NCBI GenBank assembly: GCA_021805735.1
Contig: JAJZEE010000016.1
Location: 1-49,056, forward strand
Source of the DNA: Bacillota bacterium
Lineage (GTDB): Bacteria > Bacillota > Bacilli > Alicyclobacillales > SLC66
DNA length: 49,056 nt
Direction: 5' to 3'
How positions within the stretch are numbered: position 1 is the first letter of the stretch; the number at the start of each line of letters is the position of its first letter. The notes under the pieces were generated by a model, which searched no databases, was not told the origin of the DNA, and saw only the letters and a list, made by a program, of their open reading frames with translations. The translations under genes and the position numbers were made by a program. This document shows positions 20,213 through 36,030 of this stretch, in pieces.

Positions 20213-20982
20213 CCCGTGAAGGCGACAGTTTTGGATCCAAACTCGCGCAGCATGTCCATGTAGAGAATCTGTCCCGCCAGAGCGTGCCCCTTGGCATTCG
20301 GGTGCCAACCGTCGGCCATATACGGTACATAAGTCTGATGATGAGCGACGAGATACGCCTTCATTTGATCGAAGACATCGAACACATAGACGTTTTTGCT
20401 GTTGAAGCTTTTGGCCACATTCATTTCGTTGTCGAGGACAAACGGTTCTTGCGTCGGATATTCCGTATAGGACGCTTTTGTGATTGGCGGCGTGACGATG
20501 AATACTACGGCATGCGCCGCAAGCGCACTCTGAACTTCCCAATGAATTTGCTGCCGAAATATACTGATCGGAGTCTTGTTGTGCAGATTGTCTAGCGCTC
20601 CCCAGGAAATGACAACGATTTGCGGCTTCACCGACTTTAGCCACACAGGGTACTGACTTACAATCTTTCGCACCCCGGCGCCTGGTTGCGCCCGATCATA
20701 CACTTTGTAATAGGCGCCGCCAAGCGCAGTGAACGAGCGGAACGCGCGTGCCAGATATCCCCCGCCAATCGGATCGTCCCAACCACGGGCGACCGACGAA
20801 CCTATGGTCATTACTCTGACTGTCTGATGCTTTGCCGCTGCTGCCTGATGGCGCGCAGTCGTACGCCTGGATAAGGAGCCAGTGTGCAGTGACACCGCAT
20901 CAGCACGGGGCTGTAATCGCACGATGACGATAATCGGTATCGCTAAGAGCACACACAGCAAAAGCAAACGCTTCAACACCAT
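20209..20982 (-). CDS. SGNH/GDSL-family hydrolase, membrane-anchored or secreted
   Basis: 257-aa esterase/lipase-type protein. N-terminal hydrophobic helix (LLLLCVLLAIPIIVIV) is a signal anchor or uncleaved signal; block I Ser is in IGSSVARGW, a block III Asn is in SWGALDN, and block V Asp-His is in DGWHPNAKGH. Substrate unknown; candidates are acylated wall polymers or lipids. The start is ambiguous among ATG 20982, GTG 20979 and TTG 20976 (the last would give MKRLLLLC and the best spacing from GGGGG at 20984-20988). It follows the acyl-CoA synthetase gene directly, so the two are probably one operon. Confidence 0.85.
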   Translation of the reverse strand: MVLKRLLLLCVLLAIPIIVIVRLQPRADAVSLHTGSLSRRTTARHQAAAAKHQTVRVMTIGSSVARGWDDPIGGGYLARAFRSFTALGGAYYKVYDRAQPGAGVRKIVSQYPVWLKSVKPQIVVISWGALDNLHNKTPISIFRQQIHWEVQSALAAHAVVFIVTPPITKASYTEYPTQEPFVLDNEMNVAKSFNSKNVYVFDVFDQMKAYLVAHHQTYVPYMADGWHPNAKGHALAGQILYMDMLREFGSKTVAFTG

Positions 20983-20992
20983 TCCCCCAAAG

Positions 20993-22672
20993 TCAGTTTG
21001 CACAACCGATAGCCATAATCTCCTGTTTCAAACGGTGGCGTTGTATCTTGCCGGTCGGGCCAAGAGGGATTTCCTCAACCAAATGGAACTCCGCGGGACA
21101 TTTGTATGCGGAAACAGTGGCGACGCAGAGGGTTCGCAACTGCTCCTTAAAGGAGGCGTCCTGCCGCCGCGCCGATTCCTCTGGAACCACGTAAGCCACC
21201 ACGCGTTCACCGTACAACTCATCAGGCAATCCGATCACTGCGCAGGCCTTCACTCCAGCGTGTCGACCAATGACTTCCTCCACTTCACGGGGACTGATCT
21301 TCTGACCGGCGCGGTTGATCATTTCCTTGCTCCGTCCGGTAATAAACAGATACCCATCCTCATCAAGATATCCCAGATCTCCAGTGTGAAACCAACCTTC
21401 GCGAAAGCCCGCGCCAGTCTCGTCGCCGTATGCGTAAGCAGCGATCACACTCTCGCCGCGAATCACAATTTCCCCCACGTCGCCGTACGGCAGCACACTG
21501 CCCGCGTCATCCACCACGCGCAGTTCAACTCCATACGGCACACCTGCAGACCCAAATTTATGCTTCCCTGGGGGCAAGGGATTGACACAAACCTGGCTGG
21601 CAGCCTCTGTTAATCCGTAAGATTCTATCACTGGTACGCCAAACTTTGCCTCGAATCTCCGACCCTGCAGGGCCGGAAGCGGCGCAGACGCAGATCGTAC
21701 GAAGCGCAGGGACGCGGCAACCGCGGATGGTTCGGGGCCTTTGACGAGTATCGCAATCACCGTGGGCACCGCGGAAACCCACGTCACGCCATGTTCAATG
21801 ACAGTCGGCCAAAATCGCGATGCGCTGAATTTTTGACCGATGACCAAACGCCCGCCGGTCGTCAGCGTGGATAAAAGAGCGACAACCTGCGCGTTGATGT
21901 GAAACATGGGCAAAAAACAGTAACTCACATCAGTTGCAGTCAAACGGTGAGCATTCGTCACATTTCGCACTGTGGCGAGCACCTGCCCATGGGTGAGCAG
22001 GACTCCTTTGGGAGTGCCAGTGGTTCCGGATGTAAAAAGCAGGACGGCAGGATCGCTTTCCGCAACGCCCGCTATCGCGTCGGCCACATTTTCCAAGGCG
22101 GGCGAGTCTGACGGAGGCATGGCCGCTGCTGTGTACGCGGCAGCGCTATCCCGAAAAATCGCCGCAGGTGTATTTTTCTTCCCGGTTGTTGGTGGCGCGA
22201 AGCGCCATGGAAGTCTATCCGGGATCAGACCATCCGTCCGGACCGCGAACACGGAGAGTTCCAACCTCTTGTCCGCGTTCACAAAGGCGGCGACCACTGT
22301 CCGCAACCGATGCAGCGATTCCGCTGCGCCCAGCGCATCGACAAGCTCCGGTCCAACGAACGCCATGACGGCCTCTGAACGGTTGATCACTCCCGCCAGT
22401 TCAGGAGTAGGCATATTTGGATTAACAGGCACGACCACAGCGCCATAAGTCAGGAGAGAACTATACAGAGCCACAAAAGCGTATGAGTTGATCTGAGCGA
22501 GGACAACGCGGTCGCCGGCTGCAATTCCGAAGGTCCGCAACACATCGTGTACGTATTTCATATCGCGCAGCAATTGTTCGCGAGTGAACCAGTGTTCACT
22601 GTCGTGCGCCACCGCGGACGCGCCCGTCCGCAACCTTGCATATAGAAGCGCGCTTAACTCGGACACCTTCAT
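20993..22672 (-). CDS. AMP-forming acyl-CoA synthetase with an in-frame repeat insertion
   Basis: 559-aa adenylating enzyme activating a carboxylic acid (probably a fatty acid) to its CoA thioester. Motifs: P-loop LLFTSGTTGTPKG (~212-224), ESYGLTEAASQ, hinge GWFHTGDLGYLDEDGYLF, and the C-terminal catalytic lysine in GPTGKIQRHRL. Residues ~148-178, in the variable linker before the P-loop, are encoded by a copy (E1) of a structured repeat that also occurs between genes at 25722-25812. The frame is intact through the insertion, so the enzyme is probably active. ATG 22672 has a GGAG site 4-8 nt upstream. It is followed by the SGNH hydrolase. Confidence 0.9.
   Translation of the reverse strand: MKVSELSALLYARLRTGASAVAHDSEHWFTREQLLRDMKYVHDVLRTFGIAAGDRVVLAQINSYAFVALYSSLLTYGAVVVPVNPNMPTPELAGVINRSEAVMAFVGPELVDALGAAESLHRLRTVVAAFVNADKRLELSVFAVRTDGLIPDRLPWRFAPPTTGKKNTPAAIFRDSAAAYTAAAMPPSDSPALENVADAIAGVAESDPAVLLFTSGTTGTPKGVLLTHGQVLATVRNVTNAHRLTATDVSYCFLPMFHINAQVVALLSTLTTGGRLVIGQKFSASRFWPTVIEHGVTWVSAVPTVIAILVKGPEPSAVAASLRFVRSASAPLPALQGRRFEAKFGVPVIESYGLTEAASQVCVNPLPPGKHKFGSAGVPYGVELRVVDDAGSVLPYGDVGEIVIRGESVIAAYAYGDETGAGFREGWFHTGDLGYLDEDGYLFITGRSKEMINRAGQKISPREVEEVIGRHAGVKACAVIGLPDELYGERVVAYVVPEESARRQDASFKEQLRTLCVATVSAYKCPAEFHLVEEIPLGPTGKIQRHRLKQEIMAIGCAN
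22139..22226 (-). repeat. structured repeat E1, in frame inside the acyl-CoA synthetase
   Basis: On the minus (coding) strand this 78- to 88-nt stretch matches E3 at about 66 of 78 aligned positions by eye, with a 1-nt length difference. It contains hairpin TGGCGC/GCGCCA (22207-22202 with 22198-22193) where E3 has TGCTGC/GCAGCA, two compensatory pair changes. The shared unpaired segment is CCAACAACCGGGAAGAAAA. A second stem closes GAAAAAT with ATTTTTC, against GAAAAT/ATTTTC in E3. It encodes the peptide RLPWRFAPPTTGKKNTPAAI and flanks. Confidence 0.85.
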
Positions 22673-22889
22673 CGCTCCAATCTCCGGAAATCAGATAAGA
22701 TTGACTTCAGTTTGCCTAAACAATCTTAAAATCGCCTTAATGATCAGTTCCTCCCCTCCCCAGCCCGCGGCTGACCAAGGTCTGTATGATCGAGCAAAGC
22801 CGTTCAGACCCGGCAAACCGACGCCTTAAGGTAACTTTAAAACTTCCCATTTACCATCAAGTCCAGAAGGGAGTGTGCGGATCGATACT

Positions 22890-24065
22890 ATGAAAGAGCA
22901 TCTGTACGAAGTGGATCTGATGCGCGCATTTATTATTTTCGGCGTTGTGTGCGTTCATGTGATCTCGTTTTTCAATCTGTTTTCGCCACCGCTGTCAGAA
23001 ACAGGCATCGGGTTCGAAGCTGCCTTGACCGCCCTGCATTTTACCAGGGAATCATTCATGTTTATTACTGGACTGGTTCTGTTCATTACCTACTACAATC
23101 GACCCTTCAAAGCGCGGTCTTTCTGGTCAAAACGCTTCAAACTGATTTTCATTCCGTACGCGGCCTTTACGCTCCTGTACATCCTGTTCTCCGGAACTTA
23201 TCTCAAAGGCTGGCAGTGGACATTGCCCAACGTCCTGGGAACGTACGCCACCTCTTTGCTCGATGGTCATCAGTTCTATCTTTATTATCTGGTCATTTCC
23301 ATGCAACTGTACCTATTTTTTCCGTTCTTCGTCATGTTTATGAAAAAACTGAAAAATTGGCACACTGTTCTTTTCATCAGTAGTTTCGCGCTGCAGATTG
23401 CGCTCATGTGGGTCAATAAAGCGGTGCTTCAAAACATGGACACAGCGCATTTTCCGCAGTGGTTGGCGCTGCTCCTTCATTACCGCGACCGCTACCTGAT
23501 CACGTACCAGTTCTGGTTCATTTCCGGAGCCCTGTTCGCCATTCACTACGAAAAGATCAAAGCGTATGTGCTGGAACACGCAAAGCTCGTGTACGGAGTA
23601 TTGGCGGTGGTATTGCTCGCATTGTGGGCGCACTACGCTCTTGACCGACTGGTGCTGCATCAGGATGAGACCATGTCGGTGCTGGTGCTGCAGCCGATGA
23701 TGATTCCCTTTAGCTTCGCCGTCACCGTGGCCTTGTGGCGAGCCGGCATGAGTTGGTCGAAAGTTCGCCTGGAGCCTGGAGTGCAGTGGTTTTCCCGCTT
23801 CGTAAAAGTCGCGGCGGCAGCTTCATTTGGAGTCTTTCTCGTGCATCCACTGATCCTGCACTTCGTGGAGCTCGCGATCTATCGCATCGATCCCAGCACT
23901 CCCATCCGTTTGCTGCTGCTTCCGGTAACAATCGCCGTGGTTTACGGGGGTGGCATCCTCATCGCGCGACTTATTGGAAACATCCCCTTGCTCAGTTATA
24001 TCGTCGGGCAGAAATCCGCGGCGCCCAAGCACTTTAAAGTGGGGGTGACAAGGGCCTCCCAGTAG
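22890..24065 (+). CDS. acyltransferase-3 family membrane protein
   Basis: 391-aa integral membrane protein with about ten helices. The N-terminus EVDLMRAFIIFGVVCVHV carries the conserved Arg and His of the Acyl_transf_3 family (OatA, WecH, surface-polymer O-acetyltransferases). It probably acylates a cell-envelope glycan or lipid. The start is uncertain: ATG 22890 lacks a well-spaced ribosome site, while GTG 22875 is very close behind AGAAGGGAG. The upstream 217-nt gap to the divergent acyl-CoA synthetase holds AT-rich stretches but no promoter I would defend. Confidence 0.82.
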   Translation: MKEHLYEVDLMRAFIIFGVVCVHVISFFNLFSPPLSETGIGFEAALTALHFTRESFMFITGLVLFITYYNRPFKARSFWSKRFKLIFIPYAAFTLLYILFSGTYLKGWQWTLPNVLGTYATSLLDGHQFYLYYLVISMQLYLFFPFFVMFMKKLKNWHTVLFISSFALQIALMWVNKAVLQNMDTAHFPQWLALLLHYRDRYLITYQFWFISGALFAIHYEKIKAYVLEHAKLVYGVLAVVLLALWAHYALDRLVLHQDETMSVLVLQPMMIPFSFAVTVALWRAGMSWSKVRLEPGVQWFSRFVKVAAAASFGVFLVHPLILHFVELAIYRIDPSTPIRLLLLPVTIAVVYGGGILIARLIGNIPLLSYIVGQKSAAPKHFKVGVTRASQ

Positions 24066-24148
24066 GACCGAAGTGAAACGGCAGGAACGGGCGACCCAAA
24101 GAACGTGGATGGACCAAGTTTCATCACTTTATGAAGGAGGTATGGTCT

Positions 24149-25582
24149 ATGCAACCGGAACTGTACCGGGACGAGAATCTCCTTGCCCGGCTGGATCGCA
24201 TGCCGATGACCCGCACGGCTTTCTGGATCGTCGCGCTCCTCTCTCTTGTCTGGATTGCCGAAGCGTTTGACATCGGCATCGTGGGACCTGTCGTGACGCT
24301 CTTAAATGGCGTCTGGCATCTCTCGAAAGCGCAACAGGGTCTCCTTGGCGTGTCCTCCACAATAGGCATCGTCATCGGACTCATTCCTTCGGGAATCATC
24401 GCTGACAAACTGGGACGGCGCACCGTGGTTCTGGGCGGTATCGCATGCTTTTCCGTATTGACTGTACTCGGCGCATTCGCCGCGAATTTTTGGTTCCTTT
24501 TTATCATTCGCCTTCTGGCCGGAATCGGTGAAGGCGCCATTTTTCCCATGCCTTACCTGTTTCTCGCCGAGTTCGTACGCGCCAAACGACGGGCCGTCAG
24601 TGTGGGATACTCCAACGGTGTATTGACAGCCGCTTATCTGATTCCCAGTCTTTCCGCAGTCTGGGCGATCCACGCCTTCCCAGCGGCTGTCTCCTGGCGA
24701 ATTCCCTTCGTGTTGGGCGGTCTTCCGCTCGTCCTGCTCATTCCACTGGCCCTCTGGTTGCCGGAATCCCCGCGTTTTTTACTCAAGCATGGACGCCGGG
24801 ATGAAGTTCGGCAGTTGGTTGAAAAACTGGAACGGCAGGCGAACCTGCCCCATGATCCGACGTTGATCAATCGTCGCGCCCTGGCGGTTATTCACCAGGG
24901 GGCTGTTCGCAAACCATCGTTACGCTCCCTTTTGCGAGCGCCGTACCTGTCTCGCGGCGTCATTGCAGCTGCTCAACTGACCGGCGCGTTAATCCTGTTT
25001 TACATTTTGCTGGTCTTCGGACCCACGATCCTGATGGAGCGCGGATTTGGATCCGGCAACGCCATTCTCTTCACTGGAGCCATGATGGGCACCGCAGGCG
25101 CTGGCTCGATCGTTCAAGGCTATCTGGCTGATCGCTATGGTCGAAAATGGATCTTGACAGTGTATTTTTTCCTCGCGTCAATCGGTTGTATCATGTTTGG
25201 ACTGTTTACCAACGCCGCCCTGGTCATTGTCGCCGGGCTGCTGACCTCGTTTTTCGGCCTTGGGGTGTTTCCTGTCTCAAAACTCTACCTGGCGGAACAG
25301 TTCCCGACCCGGTTGCGGGGCGGCGGCGTTTATTTCGGAGAAATGACCGCACGCATATTGAGCGGGGTAGTGACCATATATTCCCTGCCGTTTCTGTTGC
25401 AACTGTGGGGCAATCGCGTTATCTTTGAAGCGATCGCGATCGCTCTGCTTGTCCTTGCCCTCCCGGTTGTTCTGTGGGGCAGAGAAACGGCTCGCATCAG
25501 CGTCGAAGAAGCCGGCACCGACATGTCATTCGCAGAACTCGATTCGGAATTCGAATCAGTACCAGGAGCCAAACTGGTATAG
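24149..25582 (+). CDS. MFS transporter, sugar-porter/NiaP-like
   Basis: 477-aa twelve-helix transporter. Typical sugar-porter motifs: GIIADKLGRRTVVLGG between helices 2 and 3, RLLAGIGEGA, WLPESPRFLLKHGRRDE before the central loop, and GYLADRYGRKW between helices 8 and 9. The closest look-alikes are the aromatic-acid/nicotinate (NiaP/YceI) carriers, but the substrate cannot be assigned. ATG 24149 has AAGGAGG (24134-24140) 8 nt upstream. The stop TAG lies in the head of repeat E2 (CTGGTATAG), so the repeat array begins exactly at the end of the gene. Confidence 0.88.
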   Translation: MQPELYRDENLLARLDRMPMTRTAFWIVALLSLVWIAEAFDIGIVGPVVTLLNGVWHLSKAQQGLLGVSSTIGIVIGLIPSGIIADKLGRRTVVLGGIACFSVLTVLGAFAANFWFLFIIRLLAGIGEGAIFPMPYLFLAEFVRAKRRAVSVGYSNGVLTAAYLIPSLSAVWAIHAFPAAVSWRIPFVLGGLPLVLLIPLALWLPESPRFLLKHGRRDEVRQLVEKLERQANLPHDPTLINRRALAVIHQGAVRKPSLRSLLRAPYLSRGVIAAAQLTGALILFYILLVFGPTILMERGFGSGNAILFTGAMMGTAGAGSIVQGYLADRYGRKWILTVYFFLASIGCIMFGLFTNAALVIVAGLLTSFFGLGVFPVSKLYLAEQFPTRLRGGGVYFGEMTARILSGVVTIYSLPFLLQLWGNRVIFEAIAIALLVLALPVVLWGRETARISVEEAGTDMSFAELDSEFESVPGAKLV

Positions 25583-25733
25583 TGCTCTCATGGCGCCTGC
25601 GCGCCGCCAACAGCAGGGATGGAAAACCCGCTCGTCAGGATTCATATGCTGTGCCCGTCGCGAGTTCGGCGCAGCCGTGTCTGAGCAGGGGCACAGCATA
25701 TGAATCCGGTCGGCAGGGTGACGGATTTCCGGC
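25574..25733 (+). repeat. structured repeat E2 (long form)
   Basis: Head motif GGTATAG then CTCTCATGG, a GGCGC/GCGCC hairpin (25592-25605), CCAACAGCAGGGATGGAAAA, then a 19-bp perfect stem GGATTCATATGCTGTGCCC (25638-25656) / its complement (25689-25707). The 32-nt loop carries GCGAGTTCGGC and GTGTCTGAGC with a CGGC/GCCG mini-stem. The tail GGCAGGGTGACGGATTTCCGG ends in the CCGGCATAG boundary shared with E3. The whole 25583-26104 interval (522 nt) is non-coding and consists of E2, E3, a 27-bp hairpin and E4. Confidence 0.9.
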
Positions 25734-25812
25734 ATAGACTTTCATGCTGCTACGCAGCACCAACAACCGGGAAGAAAATGCGCCTGCGGCGATTTTCCGG
25801 CATAGCGCTCTC
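25722..25812 (+). repeat. structured repeat E3 (short form), tandem with E2
   Basis: Bounded by CCGGCATAG at both ends. It carries hairpin TGCTGC-TAC-GCAGCA (25745-25759), the conserved ACCAACAACCGGGAAGAAAA segment, and a closing stem GAAAAT (25774-25779) / ATTTTC (25792-25797). It is the intergenic relative of E1 and carries the compensatory differences described there. Confidence 0.88.
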
Positions 25813-25826
25813 AAGAGGTCGGACCG

Positions 25827-25890
25827 CGCACAACTCATGGACACAGAGGATCCGTCGATGGCCGGATCCTCTGTGTCCATGAGTTGTGCG
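25827..25890. repeat. 27-bp perfect hairpin
   Basis: Left arm 25827-25853 and right arm 25864-25890 are exact complements over 27 bp with a 10-nt loop (core ATGGACACAGAGGATCC). It follows E3 directly and is followed by TTTAG, so it could terminate the MFS transcript, but the stem is far longer than an ordinary terminator and lacks a T run. Confidence 0.85.
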
Positions 25891-25940
25891 TTTAGAGATG
25901 ATTAACGACTCCGTCTTGTGCTATTGTTAGATCAGACCCT

Positions 25941-26085
25941 CATGTGGAATGGAAAAGCCCGCTTGCCAGGACGGATCATGCGCTGCACTGCAGCGAGTTT
26001 TGCGGCCTTTAGGCCGCACCTGTTTGAGCGGCAGTACAGTGCATGATCCGTCCTGGCATGGCAGGGATGACCGTATTTTTTTCGG
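25941..26085 (+). repeat. structured repeat E4 (long form) upstream of a response regulator
   Basis: Leader GGAATGGAAAAGCCCGCT matches E2 and E5. Stem 17 bp perfect, GCCAGGACGGATCATGC (25965-25981) / complement (26041-26057), extended by a further 9 bp with one mismatch. The apex is GCGGCC-TTTA-GGCCGC (26002-26017). Conserved loop words GCGAGTT and TGTTTGAGC flank the apex. The tail GGCAGGGATGACCG is followed by seven T residues (26074-26082 region), ending a few bases before the ribosome site of the regulator gene. Confidence 0.88.
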
Positions 26086-26104
26086 AACAGGAGAATGTTG
26101 CCGC

Positions 26105-26782
26105 ATGCGCGTCCTGATTGTGGAGGATGAAACAAGACTGGCTGAGGCGCTGGTGCGCCTTGTGGCTGGAGAACATATTCAGGCGGACATGGCGACCGAT
26201 GGCGAAGAAGGTCTGCATTTGGCCCTGACTGTGCCTTATGACGCCATCGTGCTGGATCGCATGCTGCCCGGTCTCGACGGCCTGGAAATCGTCAGACAAC
26301 TGCGCAGCCATGACATTACGACTCCAGTGTTGTTTCTGACCGCCCGCGATTCCGTTTCAGACCGGGTATCAGGCCTCAACGCCGGGGCCGACGATTACTT
26401 GGTCAAGCCGTTTGCGACCGAAGAACTGCTGGCGCGAATTCATGCGTTAGCGCGTAGGCCGGTGGAATTCGTCCACAGCAATCACCTGACGTTCGAGTCC
26501 CTTGAGTTTGACCTTCAGACCCGTGAAATTCGCACTTCTGAAGAAAATATGGAACTGTTATCCCCCAAAGAATCGCAAATTCTTGAGATGCTGATCCGGC
26601 ATTCCGGCAAGGTGCTGACCAGACGTCAACTGATGGACAATGTATGGGGATATGAAGCCGATGTTCTAGAGGGAGTTCTTGACACCTATGTGCATCACCT
26701 GCGCAAGCGACTCCTGGCGGTTTCCGGACCTGTCATTCAAACGGTTCGAGGGGTCGGATACACTTTGAAGAAGGCCGACTGA
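26105..26782 (+). CDS. OmpR-family response regulator
   Basis: 225-aa two-component regulator. Receiver: VLIVEDETRLAEAL acidic pair, phospho-acceptor Asp in AIVLDRMLPGLDG, Thr in VLFLTARDS, Lys in YLVKPFATEELLARI. C-terminal winged helix (~125-222) with ELLSPKESQILEML, RRQLMDNVWGY and VQ-T-VRGVGYTLKK. ATG 26105 has AGGAGAA (26089-26095) 9 nt upstream. The frame is also open from ATG 25949 through the whole E4 element, so a 52-residue extension is formally possible. It is followed 23 nt later by its kinase. Confidence 0.93.
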   Translation: MRVLIVEDETRLAEALVRLVAGEHIQADMATDGEEGLHLALTVPYDAIVLDRMLPGLDGLEIVRQLRSHDITTPVLFLTARDSVSDRVSGLNAGADDYLVKPFATEELLARIHALARRPVEFVHSNHLTFESLEFDLQTREIRTSEENMELLSPKESQILEMLIRHSGKVLTRRQLMDNVWGYEADVLEGVLDTYVHHLRKRLLAVSGPVIQTVRGVGYTLKKAD

Positions 26783-26805
26783 CGATTCATGGGAGGGGTT
26801 CTGCA

Positions 26806-28083
26806 TTGTTCTCCAGTTTAAAGAAACGGGACCCTTTTCTATATGTGCGACTAAAACTGTTTGGCATTAACATAGGCGCGCTGCTCACAATATGGGTCAT
26901 CCTTCTGTCGCTAGTGTACAGTCTGATGACCAATGAACTGTACAATGTCCTGGATAATCAGTTACAGGGAGCGGCTGCTCGAATCATTCATGCATACATC
27001 CGCAATCAGGCGAAGCCAGCCAACGGTCAGAATATGACTATTTCGGGAATTGGCTACAGTCTGTGGAGTTTAGTCAATGAGGGGGGAGCAAAGACCAGTT
27101 TTTTTATTGATGGAGATCCATTCGTCGATGTTTGGCATATTTACAGTTTGGCCGTGGCCCATCCAAACGGTTATTATGTCACTGTGCACGACCTGGGCGT
27201 TCCCTATCGATCCTTCTATGCCCTCGTTCACGCACAACGCGGAAATTATTTGATACGCGTCACAACACCCACAGGGCCGACAGACACCACTCTGGGCAAC
27301 CTGCTCTGGACACTGACAGAAGTAGGATTGGCGGCGCTCGCCCTCACCATAGCGGTCGGTATGTGGCTCGCTTCGCGCAGTTTGGCGCCGACCATTGCGT
27401 CCTGGCGCCGCCAGCAGCAGTTCGTGGCCGACGCGTCTCACGAGTTGCGCACGCCACTGGCCATCATCAAGACCAATCTCGAAGTCCTCCTGCAACATCC
27501 GGATCACACCATCGAAAGTGAGATCCGCTATCTGGGCAACGCGTATGAAGAACTGGTGCGCACGGGTTCCCTGATTGAGGATCTGCTGACGCTCGCCCGT
27601 GCTGATTCCCACGAACCCCTGATCGACAAACGCAGTGTAAACTTGACTAAACTCGTCGTGGAGACCGTTGAAGCCATTAACCCGATGGCCTTGGCCCAGG
27701 ACAAATCGGTCACGGCATTGACCCCGCATTTCCCCTGCATGACGCTCGGCGACATGGCAAGATTGCGGCAACTGCTGCTCGTTTTAATAGATAACGCTCT
27801 ACGCTATTCCGACGCGGGGGCGTCAATCACCGTGTCTCTTGAGTGTGATACGCTGCACTCGAAAATCGTAGTCGCCGACACAGGGTTTGGCATTGCTCCT
27901 GCGCTATTGCCAAAGATATTTGACCGTTTTGTCCGGGGTGACGCCAATCGTCAGCGCAATAACCAGGGAAGCGGTCTCGGGTTGTCGATCGCCAAGTGGA
28001 TCGTGGACGCGCACGGAGGCTCCATACAGGTGGAAAGCGCGCTGGGGAAGGGAACGACAGTCACCATTACGTTGAATCCATGA
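26806..28083 (+). CDS. sensor histidine kinase
   Basis: 425-aa membrane kinase, partner of the preceding OmpR-type regulator. First membrane helix ~residues 16-42, an extracytoplasmic domain (~43-165), second helix ~168-190. HisKA: phospho-acceptor His in ADASHELRTPLAIIKTNLEV (SHELRTPLA). HATPase: N box VLIDNALRYS, G1 VADTGFGIA, F box FDRFVRGD, G2 GSGLGLSIAKWIV. TTG 26806 is chosen as start because GGGAGGGG (26791-26798) is 7 nt upstream. The last 17 nt overlap the convergent menH gene. The stimulus is unknown; no target genes are adjacent apart from the repeats. Confidence 0.92.
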   Translation: MFSSLKKRDPFLYVRLKLFGINIGALLTIWVILLSLVYSLMTNELYNVLDNQLQGAAARIIHAYIRNQAKPANGQNMTISGIGYSLWSLVNEGGAKTSFFIDGDPFVDVWHIYSLAVAHPNGYYVTVHDLGVPYRSFYALVHAQRGNYLIRVTTPTGPTDTTLGNLLWTLTEVGLAALALTIAVGMWLASRSLAPTIASWRRQQQFVADASHELRTPLAIIKTNLEVLLQHPDHTIESEIRYLGNAYEELVRTGSLIEDLLTLARADSHEPLIDKRSVNLTKLVVETVEAINPMALAQDKSVTALTPHFPCMTLGDMARLRQLLLVLIDNALRYSDAGASITVSLECDTLHSKIVVADTGFGIAPALLPKIFDRFVRGDANRQRNNQGSGLGLSIAKWIVDAHGGSIQVESALGKGTTVTITLNP

Positions 28084-28951
28084 GCGGGTCTTTCCGGAAC
28101 AAAACTGTTTTCGATGGATCGATGTGACCCTGCGCATCCAAAAACTCAGTCACCAAAGCGGCAAACTCTGCTGGTCGTTCCAGATGAACGTTGTGCCCGG
28201 CGCCCTTGACGACCACATGGGCGCCATGAGGTAAAAGGCGAGTCATGGCGGACCCAATGCGGGTGAACTTGGCGTCGAGTTCCCCCGACACTGCCAGAAC
28301 AGGCGCCGACACCGACGAGAGATGCTCCCACAGCGATGGCTGAGCGCCCGTTCCATGACCGCGCAAACTGCCTCCGAGCCCATGGGGTCGTTGCGCCAGT
28401 CGGACCAGTCTCTGCCGTCTTCTGAGGTCCAGGTCAAGACTCGTCTGCGACGCAAACAGCGGCTGTGATTCCCATAAATCAACGAAGCGTTCCATTCCCT
28501 CCGATTCAATCCATCCCGCCAGAGCATCATCACTGTTGCGCCGCTCAGCGCGTTCGCGTTCTGATGAAAGCCCCGGTGAAGCGCTCTCCAGCACCAATGT
28601 CCGGATCAGACGCGGATAGGCGACCGCCAGCGCAAGGGCGATGCGTCCACCCATCGAATAACCGATCACGTCCGCTTGAAGAACGCCCAGCGCGAGCAGC
28701 ACCGCGCGCAGATCCAGAACCATGCTCGGCATTTCGTACCTGGCGCTGTCTGTCGGAGCGTCAGAACCGCCGTGACCGAGCAGGTCGACGGCCGCTATCG
28801 CCCGCCGGGAAAGCATGGGAAATATATCGGCGAAATCCTCCGCACACCCTGCAAATCCGTGCAAAAAGAGTACGACGTCGTCGCTGGTCCTACGATTCTG
28901 CCATATGCGCAACTCGACTCCGTTAACAGTCAGGGAGCGATAGCCGCTCAC
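28067..28951 (-). CDS. menH: SHCHC synthase MenH (alpha/beta hydrolase)
   Basis: 294-aa alpha/beta-hydrolase, last gene of the men operon; eliminates pyruvate from SEPHCHC to give SHCHC in menaquinone synthesis. Nucleophile elbow DVIGYSMGGRIALAL with catalytic Ser; oxyanion segment VVLFLHGFAG; Asp in AVSGELDAKF; His in KGAGHNVHLERP. The length is slightly above the usual 260-270 aa. GTG 28951 overlaps the menD stop in GTGA, so translation is coupled. Assignment rests strongly on context; the fold alone is generic. Confidence 0.9.
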   Translation of the reverse strand: MSGYRSLTVNGVELRIWQNRRTSDDVVLFLHGFAGCAEDFADIFPMLSRRAIAAVDLLGHGGSDAPTDSARYEMPSMVLDLRAVLLALGVLQADVIGYSMGGRIALALAVAYPRLIRTLVLESASPGLSSERERAERRNSDDALAGWIESEGMERFVDLWESQPLFASQTSLDLDLRRRQRLVRLAQRPHGLGGSLRGHGTGAQPSLWEHLSSVSAPVLAVSGELDAKFTRIGSAMTRLLPHGAHVVVKGAGHNVHLERPAEFAALVTEFLDAQGHIDPSKTVLFRKDPLMDST

Positions 28952-30897
28952 GTTGTCAACACTCCCGAACAGGCGTCAAAGATCCGCTGATGCCACATTG
29001 CGTTGGTCTCCCTGTGGGTGCGAACCTCCAGAACATGGAGTCCCGAGGAACCTAGCGATTGAGCGACGGATTGTCTAAAATGAGCCCAATTGGCAATTCG
29101 TGTATGAGCGCCACCATACATGCGAACGATCGGTTCAAAATCCAGACCATGGGGGGTCGAGAAGTAGGAAAACACATCATCCTGAGTCGACTGCGGCAGA
29201 AACGAGAAAATGCCGCCTCCGTCATTGTGGACCAAAATGATCGTGAGGTCGAGTCCGTACTGACGCGCTGCCAGCAGCCCATTGGCATCATGGTAGAATG
29301 ACACATCCCCGATCACCAGCACCACGCGACGGCCGTGCGCGGCGGCTCCCACCGCCGTTCCGAGCGCCGTCGACACTACGCCGTCAATCCCACTGACGCC
29401 GCGATTGGCCATGATGTGCAAAGAGCGCTCCCCTTTTGGGAAAAAGGAATCCAAATCGCGGACCGGCATACTGTTTCCCGCAAATAAGACGCAGCCTTCC
29501 GGGAGCAGTTGCGCCAGTTCCACAAATATGCGGCCTTCAAACAGTGGTTCCTCCGGTAGATTCGGCGAGCTCTGCGTACCCTGCTCATGACCCGCGCCCT
29601 TCTCGCGCGACGCGCTGGCGGCACTGTTCCTGCCGACCGCAGACGGGAACTCAGGGGGAACGGCCATCGTCTGCCCGAGAAGCGTCGCCGCTACAGACGC
29701 ATTCGATTGCAACCAACCTCGCGCAAAGACGCTCTCTGTCCGATGTTCCACGGCCGCCGCGAGGCGAACTGCGAAATCCACCGCGTCACAGTTGAACACG
29801 TCGGTCGCGCAGAAAAATGGATCCTGCCAGTTTTCCGCGTCATCCACAACGATTTGCCGCACGCCCCTGTAATCCGACAGATAGGCCCCCAGCACTTTCG
29901 ATGTCGGAGTCTGACCAAAACGCAACACTACGTCGGGTCGCAACGTTTCCCAAATATCCGCATGCAGTTTGCGTCTGTCGCGCAACATGACATCGTAGGC
30001 GTCAACGACCATAGACCCTCTACCTTCTGCGGCCCTTGCCTGCGACAAAGGATCCGCCAGCAGAGGATACTGCAAAGCTTCTGCCAACGAGCGCAACGCC
30101 AGGGCGAGACGTGGATCATCCTGTGGACCACAGACAATCAGTCCGCGCGCCATATGGAAAAGGTCATCGGCGAGAGCGTTCAAGTCAGAGTCGTCTAGAC
30201 GTCTGACACCGCGCCGAAAGCGAACAAATGGGCGTCCACCCGGACGTGCGATTGGAGGCGCCGCTGTGCTTGACTGGGTCGCTTGAACCATCGATTCATA
30301 AACGGGCGCGTCAGTCATTTCCGGTTCTCTCGCGGCTAGAGAAGTATTCAAACCATCGGGAGGCAAGAGCGGTTCCCGAAATGGCCAATTGATGTGCACA
30401 GGGCCCGCCGGCTCTGCCGCAGCCTCGGATACGGCCCGAAAGACCGCTGTCCTGGCTTGTTCATCAAGCATGGCGGCGCCATCTGGAGTAGGCATGTCCG
30501 CTTGCCATTTCACATAGGAGCCGTACAGTTTCACTTGATCCACCGTCTGATTGCTGCCCACGCCCCGCAATTCAGGTGGGCGATCCGCCGTCACAATGAG
30601 CAGCGGAACCCGGCTTTGCCTCGCTTCCATCACGGCCGGAAAATAGTTTGCCGCCGCTGTTCCTGACGTACAGATGAGCGCGACAGGTCGCTTCGTCATA
30701 CGAGCCAGTCCGACCGCAAAGAACCCGGCCGAGCGTTCATCCAATAAACTCCAGGTGCGCAGAGCAGGTTCCCGCACACAGGCTGCAGTAAGCGGCGTCG
30801 AACGCGACCCCGGCGAAATGCAGACATGTTCAACCCCGGCATGCCGAAGTTGACTTACAAATGAAACGACCACAGACAGATCCGGATTGACGATCAT
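28948..30897 (-). CDS. menD: SEPHCHC synthase MenD
   Basis: 649-aa ThDP-dependent enzyme joining isochorismate and 2-oxoglutarate in menaquinone synthesis. N-terminal PYR domain contains EHVCISPGSRSTPLT and LICTSGTAAANYFPAV; the C-terminal PP domain contains FAGNSMPVRDLDSF, NRGVSGIDGVVSTALG and the GD-x22-N ThDP motif from LVIGDVSFYHDANGL. The protein is longer than the usual ~560-590 aa; two insertions stand out, a Pro/Arg-rich one (~residues 215-250) and an Ala/Ser/Glu-rich one (~430-465). ATG 30897 overlaps the menF stop in ATGA; an upstream in-frame ATG at 30960 lies inside menF and is less likely. Confidence 0.95.
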   Translation of the reverse strand: MIVNPDLSVVVSFVSQLRHAGVEHVCISPGSRSTPLTAACVREPALRTWSLLDERSAGFFAVGLARMTKRPVALICTSGTAAANYFPAVMEARQSRVPLLIVTADRPPELRGVGSNQTVDQVKLYGSYVKWQADMPTPDGAAMLDEQARTAVFRAVSEAAAEPAGPVHINWPFREPLLPPDGLNTSLAAREPEMTDAPVYESMVQATQSSTAAPPIARPGGRPFVRFRRGVRRLDDSDLNALADDLFHMARGLIVCGPQDDPRLALALRSLAEALQYPLLADPLSQARAAEGRGSMVVDAYDVMLRDRRKLHADIWETLRPDVVLRFGQTPTSKVLGAYLSDYRGVRQIVVDDAENWQDPFFCATDVFNCDAVDFAVRLAAAVEHRTESVFARGWLQSNASVAATLLGQTMAVPPEFPSAVGRNSAASASREKGAGHEQGTQSSPNLPEEPLFEGRIFVELAQLLPEGCVLFAGNSMPVRDLDSFFPKGERSLHIMANRGVSGIDGVVSTALGTAVGAAAHGRRVVLVIGDVSFYHDANGLLAARQYGLDLTIILVHNDGGGIFSFLPQSTQDDVFSYFSTPHGLDFEPIVRMYGGAHTRIANWAHFRQSVAQSLGSSGLHVLEVRTHRETNAMWHQRIFDACSGVLTT

Positions 30898-32402
30898 TTC
30901 ATCAACTCCTGCCCAAGCGCAACCCGCATGGGGCGCATCTTCCACTCGGTTTCCCGCCATTCTGCCAGGGGTTCCGAGCCTGCTACAATACCCGCGCCCG
31001 CAAACAGATTTGCGCCGTTTTCGTCCATGAGCGCCGAGCGCAGTGTCACGACAAACATGCCGTTGCCCTCTCCGTCGATCCAGCCAAGCGGCCCCGCATA
31101 CCAGCCACGGTCCATGCGTTCCCGTTCCCTGATGATCTGCAGCGCGGTCTGCTTGGGCGATCCAGCGACGGCCGGCGTCGGATGAAGTCGCGCCACGACG
31201 TCGAGAATCGACATGCCGGACGATAGCTGACCGCGAACAGGAGTGTACAGGTGCTGCACATTGGCCAGTTTGCGAACAGTGGGTTCCTCCGGAAACTGAA
31301 CCGCTTCTACAGACCCATCAATGTCGCCCAATATTCCTCTTAGCACAAAGGAGTGTTCCTCACGATTCTTGTGACTGGTAAAGAGCATCTCCGCCATGGT
31401 CGCGTCTTCGTCAGGCGTCAAACCTCTGGGAGCGGTGCCTGCCAAGCAATCGATCGATACGGCGCCGTGACCCGTCTGCACAAGCCGCTCTGGAGTCGCT
31501 CCCGCAAACACCTGACCCCCTCGCGCGACAGCAAAAACCACGCCGTCGCCATATCGTGTCTCAAGGTCCTGCAGCGTCTGGGGCAATCGCGCGAACGCCT
31601 GTACAGACACGCGTTCGCGACGCGCCAGGACAACCTTCTCATAAAGGCCCTGACGAATGTCTTCCTCGACGCTCAAAGTGGCGTCCGTCCACACTGCCTG
31701 TGTCGATGACAAGTTCAAAGAGGCGGCGTCCGCTTGCTCCCTGTTCCGGTCTTCCACAGCGGCCGCGAACACCTGCTGATTGTCGCTCGCATTGTCACGC
31801 GTCCATCGATCCGTCCGCGTTGTTTCTGTCCGCGATCGATCCAGCGCTGTGACCAATTCATCCATCAGTCGATCGCGCTGACTCTCCGTCTCCGTATGCG
31901 GTTGCACCTCAACGCATACTGTGACCATGGTCGCAAGCCCCGGCCGCTGCTCAATCACAAACCGCGGAAGCATCAACAGACCATTCGGCCAATTGCGCCA
32001 AAGTTCATCACGGGGGTGTTCCGGATCAAATGCGAACCCTGCCAGCCAGCGCGGAACAGCATCGCCAAAGCATATCACGCGGTTGGTCAGATCCGCCAAC
32101 GCCTGCGCTGCTTCCGAAACGGGTCGAAAACTGTCATACTCTTGTATCGCCGCCGCGCCTAGCGCGCACCACCGCCTATGGGTGTCTCGATCAGACCAGT
32201 ACCAACGAGTCTCATAGGCGTCCGCGACGGCAAACAGCGCACGCAAATCACAGGTAGTCGCGGTGAGCGGCAACGAACAACACGCGATCACAGTGTTTCC
32301 GCACAGCCGCGCCTGCGCCAGGGATTGACGAAGCGCATCAGAAAACGCATCCAAATGTTTCCGGTCAGACAATGACGTATATGTCCCAATGTCTACAGAC
32401 AT
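30894..32402 (-). CDS. menF: isochorismate synthase MenF
   Basis: 502-aa chorismate-binding enzyme converting chorismate to isochorismate, the entry to menaquinone synthesis. The conserved C-terminal domain shows KVVLARRERV, FAGATPERLVQ, CLAGTAPRG, a metal-site KNREEHSFVLRGI, LHPTPAVAGSPKQTA, and GAGIVAGSEPLAEWRETEWK. The N-terminal ~150 residues are the divergent MenF region. It begins 10 nt inside menE (AAGGAA 8 nt before ATG 32402) and ends overlapping menD in ATGA. The chorismate-binding family also includes salicylate and anthranilate synthases; operon context settles it as MenF. Confidence 0.94.
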   Translation of the reverse strand: MSVDIGTYTSLSDRKHLDAFSDALRQSLAQARLCGNTVIACCSLPLTATTCDLRALFAVADAYETRWYWSDRDTHRRWCALGAAAIQEYDSFRPVSEAAQALADLTNRVICFGDAVPRWLAGFAFDPEHPRDELWRNWPNGLLMLPRFVIEQRPGLATMVTVCVEVQPHTETESQRDRLMDELVTALDRSRTETTRTDRWTRDNASDNQQVFAAAVEDRNREQADAASLNLSSTQAVWTDATLSVEEDIRQGLYEKVVLARRERVSVQAFARLPQTLQDLETRYGDGVVFAVARGGQVFAGATPERLVQTGHGAVSIDCLAGTAPRGLTPDEDATMAEMLFTSHKNREEHSFVLRGILGDIDGSVEAVQFPEEPTVRKLANVQHLYTPVRGQLSSGMSILDVVARLHPTPAVAGSPKQTALQIIRERERMDRGWYAGPLGWIDGEGNGMFVVTLRSALMDENGANLFAGAGIVAGSEPLAEWRETEWKMRPMRVALGQELMK

Positions 32403-33898
32403 TTGACAAGTTCCTTTCGCAGCAATTTCCCTGCGGCGTTGCGCGGCAACCCCGCGGCGAAACGGATATCGCGCGGAACCTTATATCCGCCCAATCGTTC
32501 GCGACAAAACTGCCTGATATCCGCGTCCTCAACCAGCGCCCCGGCGCGCAACGCAACGACAGCCAGGACAGCCTGGCCAAACCGCTCATCCGCTACGCCA
32601 GTCACGCCAGCCTCCACGACATCAGGGTGAGCGAGCAGGACCGCCTCCACCTCGGCGGGATAGACATTTTCCCCGCCAGAGACAATCAAGTCGCTGCGCC
32701 TGTCCAGGACAAAGAGGTAGCCTTCATCATCCAGATAGCCCATGTCTCCCGTATAAAACCAGCCGTCGCGAAAGGCGTCAGCGCCAGCTTCCGATTGACT
32801 GTCGTAGCCATGAATGACTGTCGGGCCGCGCAGCGCGATCTCCCCCTCCGACCAAGGCGGCAGCGCCACTTCCCCATCCATGATGCGAACTTCTGTCATA
32901 AGCAGAGGTTGCCCGCTTGATCCCAATTTGCGCATGCTGTCTTCCAGCGACAACGTAGCCACTTGCGAGTTGGCTTCAGTCAGTCCATAGCTTTGGCTGA
33001 CAGGTACAGCGAGAGACCTGCAATCCTCAAGCAGCGGTTGGGGAGCAGGCCCCCCTCCAAGCAGGATGTTGCGCAGCGTGGTCGGATACGGAACCTCCCG
33101 GTTCGCAATCATGCGCGTCAACATGGCGGGCACAACTGAAACGAGACTGACGCCCTGCGTGTCGATCGCGTGATTCACAGCGTCTGGGTCAAACGCGCGA
33201 TGAATCACCGCTGCGGTGCCGTAAATCACGCTCCGCAGCAGCACCGCCTGTCCGCCCACATGAAACAGCGGCAAAGGCGTGAGCCACTTATCGTCCGGAT
33301 GCACACCCAGACGAAATGCCGAACCCGTCGCACCCCACAAATGGTTGCCGTACGTGATCAGCGCTCCCTTTGGCCGACCGGTGGTGCCGGAAGTGAACAT
33401 CACGCACTGAACATCACGCAAATCAAGATGATCGCGACGCACCGGATCCGCTGACGTTGGCCAGTGCTCTCCATCCAATGTCAGGACATCGATTACGCTG
33501 CTTTTTCCGTCAGTGGACATCTGGTCCCTCAACTGCTGCGCCAGATGACTGTGTTCTGCGTCGCAAATTAGCAAGCGCACGCGGCCCGCGTTCACTTGCC
33601 ATACCAGTTCCGGGATCGCGAGACGCGTGTTGAGGGGCACCAGTACCGCGCCCAACTGAATCAGCGCGTGCACAGTCGCCGCAAACACCAGGCCGTGCCG
33701 GGCCAGCAGAGCAACCCGTTCCCCGCTTCTCACTCCGCTTTTTGCAAGTTCCCCCGCCAGACGCCCCGCGCGCTCGTGGAGCTCTGCGTACGTCCACGCC
33801 ACACCTTCACACTCGATCGCCAGCCGCCCCGAGTGACGGCGGCGGCTTAACCAGTCTGGAACGATCGGCGACGCGGACGCAGTTGCGTTGAAGTCCAC
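32393..33898 (-). CDS. menE: o-succinylbenzoate-CoA ligase MenE
   Basis: About 501-aa adenylating ligase that activates o-succinylbenzoate with CoA. P-loop VMFTSGTTGRPKGALITYGN (FTSGTTGRPKG), SQSYGLTEANSQ, hinge GWFYTGDMGYLDDEGYLFVLDRRS (FYTGDMGYLD), and catalytic Lys in RNAAGKLLRKEL. The start is either ATG 33904 (only 2 nt after AGGAGG) or GTG 33898 (8 nt after it); the latter is preferred. It follows menB by about 20 nt and overlaps menF by 10 nt. It is a distant paralogue of the acyl-CoA synthetase at 20993-22672. Confidence 0.93.
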   Translation of the reverse strand: MDFNATASASPIVPDWLSRRRHSGRLAIECEGVAWTYAELHERAGRLAGELAKSGVRSGERVALLARHGLVFAATVHALIQLGAVLVPLNTRLAIPELVWQVNAGRVRLLICDAEHSHLAQQLRDQMSTDGKSSVIDVLTLDGEHWPTSADPVRRDHLDLRDVQCVMFTSGTTGRPKGALITYGNHLWGATGSAFRLGVHPDDKWLTPLPLFHVGGQAVLLRSVIYGTAAVIHRAFDPDAVNHAIDTQGVSLVSVVPAMLTRMIANREVPYPTTLRNILLGGGPAPQPLLEDCRSLAVPVSQSYGLTEANSQVATLSLEDSMRKLGSSGQPLLMTEVRIMDGEVALPPWSEGEIALRGPTVIHGYDSQSEAGADAFRDGWFYTGDMGYLDDEGYLFVLDRRSDLIVSGGENVYPAEVEAVLLAHPDVVEAGVTGVADERFGQAVLAVVALRAGALVEDADIRQFCRERLGGYKVPRDIRFAAGLPRNAAGKLLRKELVKCL

Positions 33899-33918
33899 CT
33901 GCATACCCTCCTGACGTC

Positions 33919-34737
33919 CTACGGTAAGCGCGGAAATTGCGAGAAGTCAGGCGAGCGTTTTTCAAGGAACGCGTTTTTACCTTCCCGCGCTTCTTCTGTC
34001 ATGTAAAACATCATGGTGGCGTCTCCCGCCATCTGCTGAAGCCCTGCCAACCCATCCGTGTCCACATTGAATGACGCCTTTAAAAAGCGAATAGCCATCG
34101 GACTCTTTGACAATATTTCCCGCGCCCAAGCAACGGCCTCATCCTGCAGGCGCTGGACAGGAACAACCGCATTGACCAACCCCATATCAAGCGCCTCCTG
34201 TGCGGAGTACTGTCGACACAGGAACCAGATCTCTTTTGCTTTCTTGACGCCGACAGCCCTGGTCAACAGACCCGTGCCGTAGCCAGCGTCAAAACTCCCT
34301 ACCTTCGGACCCGTTTGACCGAACACCGCGTTTTCGGCCGCGATTGTCAAATCGCACACCAGGTGCAGCACATGGCCGCCGCCAATCGCATATCCCGCCA
34401 CCGCCGCGATCACCGCCTTTGGCAACAACCGAATTTGCCGTTGCAGGTCAAGTACGTTTAACCTTGGAACTTGATCTCCGCCTATGTAGCCGCCGTGTCC
34501 GCGCACCCTCTGATCGCCGCCAGAGCAAAACGCCTGATCACCCTGTCCCGTGAAAATCACAACGCCGACATTAGCGTCATCCCTGACGCGCGCAAACGCG
34601 TCCATGAGTTCACTGACAGTCTCCGGACGAAATGCGTTGCGCACCTCTGGTCTGTTGATCGTAATGCGGGCAATGCCCTCTGCCTGTTCATAAATGATAT
34701 CCTCATAGTCATGCGCTTTACTCCACGCGATCGCCAT
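33919..34737 (-). CDS. menB: 1,4-dihydroxy-2-naphthoyl-CoA synthase MenB
   Basis: 272-aa crotonase-fold enzyme closing the naphthoate ring of menaquinone. Family blocks: [19 protein letters not shown], the oxyanion segment [18 protein letters not shown] ([15 protein letters not shown]), [20 protein letters not shown], and [12 protein letters not shown], all diagnostic of MenB; the C-terminus [19 protein letters not shown] is also typical. ATG 34737 has GGGAGGT upstream; the frame is open further up but that part is the promoter/operator region. First gene of the operon menB-E-F-D-H; menC is absent from the locus. Confidence 0.96.
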
Positions 34738-34772
34738 CGCTGAGACCTCCCGTGCCTGGCATAAGCCGCAAA

Positions 34773-34827
34773 CAGACCAGCCAGTCTGTACTGTCTCCAG
34801 TATAACAGACTGGCTGGTCTGCGCCAA
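34773..34827 (-). promoter_or_regulatory. menB operon promoter with twin dyad operators
   Basis: Minus strand: TTGGCG (34827-34822), 17-nt spacer, TATACT (34804-34799), start predicted near 34792. The spacer (34805-34821) is the exact complement of 34773-34789, a 17-bp inverted repeat, and each arm is itself a dyad CAGAC-N6-GTCTG (centres 33 bp apart). One dyad therefore covers the spacer and the other covers about +4 to +20. This is a classic repressor layout; TetR-family operators often have a similar GAC-N-GTC core. The regulator is not in the window. Confidence 0.75.
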
Positions 34828-34857
34828 CCGTCTCACCGTCTACCGTCTGAGTTCCTC

Positions 34858-34886
34858 TTGTCCAAATGCGAATCATCTGCTATCAT
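34858..34886 (+). promoter_or_regulatory. sigma-A-type promoter for menA
   Basis: TTGTCC (34858-34863), 17-nt spacer, TATCAT (34881-34886). The predicted start is near 34893, about 26 nt ahead of the TTG start. It lies outside the menB palindrome. Confidence 0.6.
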
Positions 34887-34918
34887 CCAGTGAATCCTTC
34901 AATGAGGTGGCAGATCCC

Positions 34919-35812
34919 TTGCATGTCCATTACGTTCGCATCGGGTGGAAGCTTCTGCGACCACCCACCCTGACCGCATCCATCACCCCGGTGCTCGTTG
35001 GCGCGGGGCTGGCGATTCAGCAGCACGCTCTTCGCGTTCCCGTGTTTATCGCCATGCTCGTTGCTGCCATGCTGATCCAGGCCGCGGCCAATATGCTCAA
35101 CGAGTACTACGATTTCCGGCGCGGTCTGGACAACGCCGAGATGGTTGGAATCGCGGGAACCATCGTACGCGACAATGTGTCGCCCCGGAACGTGCTTGTC
35201 ATCGCTCTGTCGACACTTGCCACTTCCCTTCTTCTAGGTGTATACATCTGCGCCAGTTCCTCGTGGTGGGTCGCCGTTGCGGGCGTAGGCAGCATGCTGT
35301 TCATGTATCTGTATTCGGGTGGTCCGTTTCCGATCTCGTACACCCCCTTCGGCGAGATCACGGCAGGCGTCATCATGGGCCCGGTCATCATAGCAATCAC
35401 GTACTTCACCCAGACGCAAACACTCTCCTGGACCCCCGCGCTCGCTTCGCTGCCGATCGGAGTATTGATTGGCGCCATTTTACTCGCCAACAACATTCGC
35501 GATATCGAGCATGATCGCGCCGGCGGACGCAAAACACTGCCGATCGTTGCCGGTCGCAGACGCGCGATTCGCATCCTGGGCGCGGCATTCGCCCTTGCGT
35601 TTCTATGCGTGCCTGTTTTGGTGCTCGCGCAACGCTTGCCTGCCTGGACCTTGCTTACCCTTCTGATGGCTCCGCTCACAGCGCGCGTACCGAGACTGTT
35701 CGCGACGACTCGCACACACCGGGAGCTTCAGGGAGCATTTAAGGCTACATCGCAGACGCTGATCGGGTTTGGCATTCTGCTCTTTGTCGGACTGCTGCTG
35801 GCAAAGGCATAG
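34919..35812 (+). CDS. menA: 1,4-dihydroxy-2-naphthoate polyprenyltransferase MenA
   Basis: 297-aa UbiA-family membrane enzyme attaching the polyprenyl side chain to DHNA. About eight or nine helices. The first aspartate-rich motif is NMLNEYYDFRRGLDNAEMVG (NEYYDFRRGLD), and the second is NNIRDIEHDRAGGRKTLP (NNIRDIEHDRAGGR), both typical of MenA. TTG 34919 is chosen because GAGGTGG (34904-34910) lies 8 nt upstream; GTG 34907 overlaps that site. It is divergent from the menB operon, with a separate promoter in the 181-nt gap. No methyltransferase (menG) follows. Confidence 0.94.
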   Translation: MHVHYVRIGWKLLRPPTLTASITPVLVGAGLAIQQHALRVPVFIAMLVAAMLIQAAANMLNEYYDFRRGLDNAEMVGIAGTIVRDNVSPRNVLVIALSTLATSLLLGVYICASSSWWVAVAGVGSMLFMYLYSGGPFPISYTPFGEITAGVIMGPVIIAITYFTQTQTLSWTPALASLPIGVLIGAILLANNIRDIEHDRAGGRKTLPIVAGRRRAIRILGAAFALAFLCVPVLVLAQRLPAWTLLTLLMAPLTARVPRLFATTRTHRELQGAFKATSQTLIGFGILLFVGLLLAKA

Positions 35813-35912
35813 GCGATTCTCCAGTCTGCCGCTCATACGCACGCTCACACATATGGATACACGGACACGAAAGTGGCGCGCAGGTTTGTGTCAGCCACCT
35901 GCACGCCCTCCT

Positions 35913-36030
35913 GAAAATGCGGTGATCCCTGCCTGCAGGCAGGATTCATATGCCGTGCCCCTGCTCAGACACGGCTGCGCCGAACTCGCGACGGGCACGG
36001 CATATGAATCCTGATGAGCGGGCTTTTCAT
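35913..36030 (-). repeat. structured repeat E5 (long form) between menA and trxB
   Basis: Reverse-orientation copy of E2. Arms 35940-35960 and 35993-36013 are 21 bp and perfectly complementary (core ATTCATATGCCGTGCCC). The loop carries GCGAGTTCGGC and GTGTCTGAGC exactly as in E2. Relative to E2 one stem pair changes from T-A to C-G on both strands. Leader TGAAAAGCCCGCT and tail GGCAGGGATCACCGCATTTTCA can pair at their ends. The 305-nt gap 35813-36117 holds this element and otherwise only short GC-rich palindromic words (GGCGCC near 36044); no gene. Confidence 0.9.

Follow-up and report, generated by a model that had tools for sequence, protein, structure and literature searches.

We analysed a stretch of 49,056 nucleotides (nt) from an uncultured Bacillota bacterium (contig JAJZEE010000016.1), hereafter the window, which is contig C128 of genome G000, an assembly of 3.76 Mb in 170 contigs. 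On its minus strand, the window carries an intact gene of 559 codons for an AMP-binding acyl-CoA synthetase (20993-22672; PF00501 and PF13193), whose nearest solved relatives are oxalyl-CoA synthetases. Within this gene lies an in-frame insertion of 69 nt (22148-22216, minus strand), consisting of one mobile hairpin element and one copy of its target repeat, which contributes 23 residues (152-174) to the protein. The closest orthologue, L031 (JAJZCB010000005.1, Bacillota bacterium isolate JA1.bin52, probably the genome that we call G001), encodes a protein that is 96% identical and lacks exactly these 69 nt, or 23 residues. The empty site in the orthologue is CGGATAGCTC; where L031 reads CGGAT followed by AGCTC, the window reads CGGAT, the element, GGGAT and AGCGC. 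The CGGAT on the 5' side of the element (22217-22221, minus strand) equals the single copy of the empty site, and the GGGAT on the 3' side (22148-22152, minus strand) was assigned as the second target repeat by the empty-site comparison, with the duplication itself tested over the element family as described below. An intergenic copy of the element (E3; 25731-25803, plus strand) lies about 3.5 kb away and has GGCAT on both sides, its limits being set by sequence matching and end comparison.

A preliminary description of this DNA had proposed that a structured repeat at 22139-22226, similar to E3, was inserted in frame in an uninterrupted 559-codon adenylating enzyme and added residues ~148-178. 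The ORF (open reading frame) is indeed unbroken and contains both AMP-binding enzyme domains. The match to E3 was recovered by independent repeat finding (22174-22224 against 25728-25778, 51 nt at 84%; 22142-22176 against 25775-25809, 35 nt at 89%) and by a BLAST search of the whole G000 genome, in which the coding copy aligned at 84% over query positions 14-95 (E = 7.6e-19). Both the repeat copy and the added segment were therefore real, but orthologue comparison moved the coordinates to 22148-22216 on the minus strand and narrowed the extra residues to 152-174.

As had also been predicted, relatives of the acyl-CoA synthetase lack the segment as a clean gap. The insert peptide was absent from all 32 aligned relatives, L031 among them, and from all 11 orthologues of related genomes, G001 among them. 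Nine of these 11 had no residues aligned to the insert, and the other two had 2 and 9 residues there, in linkers that are otherwise unrelated. The opposite picture, in which the peptide is conserved among orthologues and E3 is a decayed fragment of the gene, was not seen. Together, the empty orthologue site and the many copies of the repeat in the genome support the proposal that this enzyme carries a segment of mobile-DNA origin. Since short direct repeats flank the segment, its precise loss is possible in principle, and the 23 residues could be ancestral and have been lost in G001 through recombination between the repeats. We regard this as extremely improbable, given the absence of the peptide from all of the proteins just mentioned, the many copies of the same element elsewhere, and the fact that the copies in three other genes described below (QueG, PucR-type and methyltransferase) are missing from two or more genomes.

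An AlphaFold2 model of the acyl-CoA synthetase, computed with 33 sequences, had a mean predicted local distance difference test score (pLDDT) of 82.5 and a fold that matches oxalyl-CoA synthetase and its relatives. The pLDDT dropped below 50 at residues 148-182, as well as at 216-218 and 557-559. Because of this low confidence at residues 148-182, the added segment is predicted to form a loop that would act as a flexible linker.

The insert belongs to a family of repeats. The intergenic copy had at least 45 matching places in G000 by BLAST, a lower bound because 40 of 80 first-look candidates were scored. Within the sequence stretches fetched from three congeneric genomes (G000, G001 and G002), a profile search returned 150 distinct matches (47, 44 and 59, respectively). 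A pattern search that reached further loci contributed another 39, in some cases fragments or mosaics, giving about 190 matches in total, fragments included. When up to three mismatches were allowed, the pattern had 39, 39 and 50 matches in the three genomes, and a backwards control had 0 in all three. In line with the preliminary description, most copies lie outside recognised genes and some lie in frame inside genes. Beyond the genus, matches at E ≤ 0.001 were obtained in 2 of 58 other relatives (one in G010 and three in G031); no element match was found on plasmids, and one element pattern had no exact match in viral contigs. Copies in G031, a relative of the same order (L143 and L147), carry an extra hairpin, TGAGTTTTGCGAAGCAAAATCTCA, that is also present in mosaics of the genus.

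Elements start with AGAC, end with TTTTC or TTTTTC plus one or two bases, and contain two hairpins. Among 108 measured copies, 53 were 68 nt and 37 were 69 nt long, the 69-nt form having A5/T5 in the stem of hairpin 2 and the 68-nt form A4/T4. In the acyl-CoA synthetase copy, hairpin 1 (TGGCGC-TTC-GCGCCA) occupies 22193-22207 and hairpin 2, with an A/T-rich outer stem and a G/C inner stem, 22153-22178, both on the minus strand; the latter was defined from an alignment of 62 of the 95 distinct copies. In this alignment, compensatory changes were found at two pairs of hairpin 1, one of which is C-G in 37 sequences, G-C in 18, A-U in 2, U-G in 1 and unpaired in 4. Standard pairs filled 98.3% of pair cells, compared with 93.7% in shuffles. 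Other measures were less distinctive: 35 of 500 shuffles had at least as many pairs with changes on both sides as the alignment, and 244 of 500 at least as many pair types. The earlier view that the repeat is structured was thus upheld by the two hairpins and the compensatory changes in hairpin 1, but not by the folding of two copies alone, neither of which was notably stabler than its own shuffles (z = -1.5 and -0.4). Rfam had no match at its curated cut-offs in window positions 20900-36500; four matches there to eukaryotic microRNA families were all far below the cut-offs and were rejected.

Comparison between genomes yielded 16 pairs of filled and empty sites, of which 7 fall within recognised coding sequence and 9 elsewhere. 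Among 11 G000 loci compared, 8 could be paired with an empty site elsewhere: L008, L010, L022, L023, L025, L028 and L162 in G001, and L166 in G002. Filled partners exist for L005 (in G001) and L171 (in G002), L019 had no partner, and L017, which is empty in G001, provided the ninth non-coding pair. In G002, L028 is filled by a longer mosaic. The empty sites are mostly GGAT or similar, often with AG next, and departures from this include GGTT, GAAT, AGATT, CAGG and GGAAC. At L022, the element occupies the extreme end of an ORF that we take to be carboxypeptidase-like; it seems to supply the stop codon of this upstream ORF, because the junction (at 1503-1570) reads GGT TAG in that frame, and no element is present there in G001.

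The repeats on the two sides of the element resemble each other more than expected. Left and right repeats shared 4 nt in 64 of 97 clean-ended copies, a count that 0 of 500 shuffles attained (50.7 expected). In the 20 copies that depart from GAT on the left, 3 nt were shared in 8 (0.6 expected) and 4 nt in 5 (0.3 expected). A one-base shift was allowed in these 3- and 4-nt comparisons, for data and shuffles alike, and the end statistics derive from the 150 matches after 42 had been dropped for an unplaceable end (24 left, 18 right) and 11 more removed. Without the shift, flank positions -3, -2 and -1 covaried and -4 and -5 did not, in a test that counted orthologous copies in two genomes separately. 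Because left and right repeats covary, we read these sequence patterns as a probable short target duplication, of ~3-4 nt, at insertion. There is a real, if minor, possibility that the repeats are not duplicated targets, and that GGGAT instead belongs to the 3' end of the element, which would insert downstream of a GGAT in the fashion of IS200/IS605 derivatives, whose insertion follows a fixed short sequence. The right-hand GG, conserved even where the left flank differs, is consistent with this alternative, as are the lack of covariation at -4 and -5 and the presence of IS200-type transposases in these genomes. What argues for duplication is that non-GAT left flanks are so often matched on the right, and that the single IS200-type group inspected has other ends than the element.

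This group consisted of three resident loci compared by eye, and the difference in ends speaks against it as the mobiliser. Y1_Tnp, relevant also to the RAYT transposases associated with GTAG/CGTC palindromes, was found at 27 places in the three genomes, and element copies lay near 1 of 12 fetched loci. No transposase with matching ends was found in the comparison of this single group, no autonomous partner was present in the loci looked at, and a search for a longer autonomous version by way of left halves without right halves returned only more copies and mosaics with a larger hairpin, E1. Inspection of the 62 aligned copies by eye revealed no terminal inverted repeats at their outer ends. 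The element would presumably be moved by an enzyme acting in trans.

Seventeen in-frame copies, recognised by their open frames, lie inside 10 conserved genes of the three genomes. The preliminary description had correctly placed one in the acyl-CoA synthetase, but at least nine further genes, the target duplication and the use of several frames were not foreseen. G000 has four such copies, in the acyl-CoA synthetase, an EamA transporter, an M20 allantoate-amidohydrolase-like enzyme and a hydrogenase/complex-I-like 30/49-kDa protein. Five are in G001 (NAD epimerase, APH-family kinase, M23 peptidase, M20 and hydrogenase-like) and eight in G002 (EamA, M20, two in the hydrogenase-like gene, a PucR-type regulator, two in QueG and a methyltransferase). 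These names come from family searches, except that of the methyltransferase, which we take from its sequence to be RlmI-like. The two QueG copies are in tandem, as are the two in-frame copies in the hydrogenase-like gene of G002 (L282, 1367-1497), which has one copy each in G000 and G001. The ORFs of the G002 QueG and M20 copies are cut by a contig end, the PucR-type insert is near the N-terminus of a protein whose start codon is uncertain, and several M20 family models end at the insert. For EamA, M20 and the hydrogenase-like gene, none of the three genomes has the site in empty form.

Filled and empty versions are available for the acyl-CoA synthetase, epimerase, APH-family, M23, PucR-type, QueG and methyltransferase genes. 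In these coding pairs, the difference in length was divisible by three in 7 of 7, compared with 2 of 9 other pairs (Fisher p = 0.003; the G001 partner was used where two existed). By the frame at the element start, the coding copies fall into four reading frames, three sense and one antisense: one sense frame in the acyl-CoA synthetase, M20, PucR-type and M23 genes, another in EamA and APH-family, the third in QueG, and the antisense frame in the epimerase, hydrogenase-like and methyltransferase genes. The encoded peptides are therefore unrelated. On average, 3.94 of 6 frames were open in 90 copies, compared with 3.15 in shuffles. We also looked for frame-shifted coding copies by in-script removal of the element from profile-search copies of at least 45 bits, a set that does not include the 39 later matches, and saw by eye no convincing interrupted gene. 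The best candidate, L018, was rejected, as its gene, presumably a deacetylase, seems to start after the element.

An element in which compensatory changes have preserved hairpin 1 from copy to copy might also be intron-like or translationally bypassed, being removed before or during translation so that the protein is unchanged. We consider this very improbable, because the constraint on length and the lack of stops in the host frame would not be expected if the segment were removed; the unremarkable folding of the two lone copies also speaks against it. The protein is presumably made with its added segment.

We then considered selection on the host genes, using the ratio of nonsynonymous to synonymous substitution rates (dN/dS) from pairwise counts with Jukes-Cantor correction in our own script. 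The acyl-CoA synthetase pair had a dN/dS of 0.14, and eight other host genes, the PucR-type gene not among them, had values of 0.12-0.31. For M20, EamA and the hydrogenase-like gene, in which the insert is common to species, the overall dN/dS was 0.16-0.25, which indicates that these genes stayed constrained while carrying it. Host proteins with an insert thus mostly still appear, from their sequences, to be constrained to work. Inside the insert, the first-chosen pairs had 12 replacement and 2 synonymous changes, compared with 67 and 122 elsewhere (p = 0.0003); other choices of gene pairs gave counts of 6 and 3 or 4 and 1, and p values of 0.08 or 0.15. Neutral evolution of the insert is only suggested by these numbers, as the outcome depends on the pairs chosen, and the test for the acyl-CoA synthetase mixes changes from before and after insertion. 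Persistence of the M20 and hydrogenase-like copies in all three species could mean that the peptide is useful and kept for a function that it adds, for instance in a loop for binding or regulation. This seems unlikely to us in view of the unrelated peptides from four reading frames, the excess of replacement changes in the first-chosen pairs, though less so in the others, and the low-confidence loop predicted by AlphaFold2. We infer that the added peptide is merely tolerated.

We consider it probable, with good but not full confidence, that the insert is a copy of a short mobile element that enters tolerant protein linkers in frame while the host protein keeps working. What the sequences show directly is insertion at sites that relatives have empty, coding copies that are in frame, the lack of the acyl-CoA synthetase insert in relatives, and low dN/dS in host genes. 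In this view, an apparently non-autonomous element of 68 or 69 nt with two hairpins inserts mainly at sites resembling GGAT|AG, with a short direct repeat of the target then flanking it on each side. Where a 69-nt copy, or another stop-free multiple of three, landed in a tolerant linker, the protein would gain about 23 residues and keep working, and the copy would persist; gene copies of other lengths or positions would be removed by selection. Several points weigh against this reading. That all coding copies are in frame is partly circular, because they were recognised by their open frames; the M23 dN/dS rests on 9 changes; the neutrality result varies with the pairs; no transposase with matching ends came to light in the one group compared; and all three genomes are fragmented assemblies. 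Our confidence is limited by a duplication that shows clearly at no more than three positions and by the comparison of a single IS200-type group. It is conceivable, though doubtful, that the family is itself adapted to coding DNA and, as it spreads, works as a natural linker-insertion mutagen in tolerant loops, whether as one copy or as a tandem. A change of one base pair in the hairpin 2 stem would then convert the 68-nt form into the 69-nt one, which is compatible with coding, or back, in a sequence that is stop-poor in several frames. If true, such an element would be a natural means of protein lengthening at tolerant loops.

Rickettsia palindromic elements (RPEs) are, in the cited portions of the literature, short palindromic repeats of many copies that lie in frame in unrelated protein genes (PMC10969869, PMC3733652), each ~150 bp long with a conserved encoded peptide (PMC10969869). 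The preliminary description had named them as a precedent, which is apt for how the present element works, with 17 in-frame copies in 10 genes, but not for membership. The present element encodes no conserved peptide, and its unit differs in its length of 68 or 69 nt, its four frames in both orientations and its Bacillota host, a separation made by description rather than by sequence. GTAG/CGTC repetitive extragenic palindromes (REPs) are described as small palindromes of 20-40 bp, single or dimers, one end of which carries the tag GTAG or CGTC; they occur inside ORFs and in some cases encode 20-30 residues (PMC3733652). Unlike these, our element has two hairpins and an AGAC start, shows neither tag at its ends and leaves a target repeat at the site. 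The bcr1-type repeats of the Bacillus cereus group are likewise short repeats of a Bacillota group, but the sections cited give them another motif, with mobility tied to repeats of TTTAT (PMC6542083), and a greater length of 100-400 bp, term them intergenic (PMC3446304), and mention no in-frame coding copies. Like bacterial miniature inverted-repeat transposable elements (MITEs), the element is short, of high copy number, associated with a short target duplication, and devoid of its own transposase gene, the unit being too short to hold one; in contrast to them, no terminal inverted repeats could be made out by eye, and no partner transposase in the loci looked at. No title or abstract that describes this family was found in open-licence literature on in-frame palindromes, RPEs, Wolbachia elements, REPs of Firmicutes, bcr1 or MITEs of Alicyclobacillus.

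The repeats form a genuine family of mobile elements that resembles RPEs in outcome but is built differently, an apparently independent case in an uncultured Bacillota genus. To the extent covered by these sources, in-frame mobile palindromes in proteins were described from Rickettsia and some REP-bearing bacteria, to which this genus is now added. Because near-identical empty sites and copies common to species are both available, target duplication, age, frame constraint and selection can be measured directly, and tolerance of such insertions becomes testable per gene against a natural insert-free version of the same protein.

Other hairpin repeats accompany the element in the window. E1, a second and larger hairpin family (25595-25722 and 35932-36051), had at least 50 matches in G000, with 40 of 118 candidates scored. 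No E1 coding copy was recognised in 30 fetched loci, of which the middle was scanned and those at contig ends were poorly covered. E1 is often joined, as a mosaic, to the left half of the 68/69-nt element, and many E1 copies have similar GGAT-like ends. E2, a related long hairpin with GGAAT-like ends (25945-26070), adjoins the start of a gene that, from its sequence, we take to be response-regulator-like. Finally, positions 25827-25890 form a perfect 28-nt inverted repeat with an 8-nt loop.
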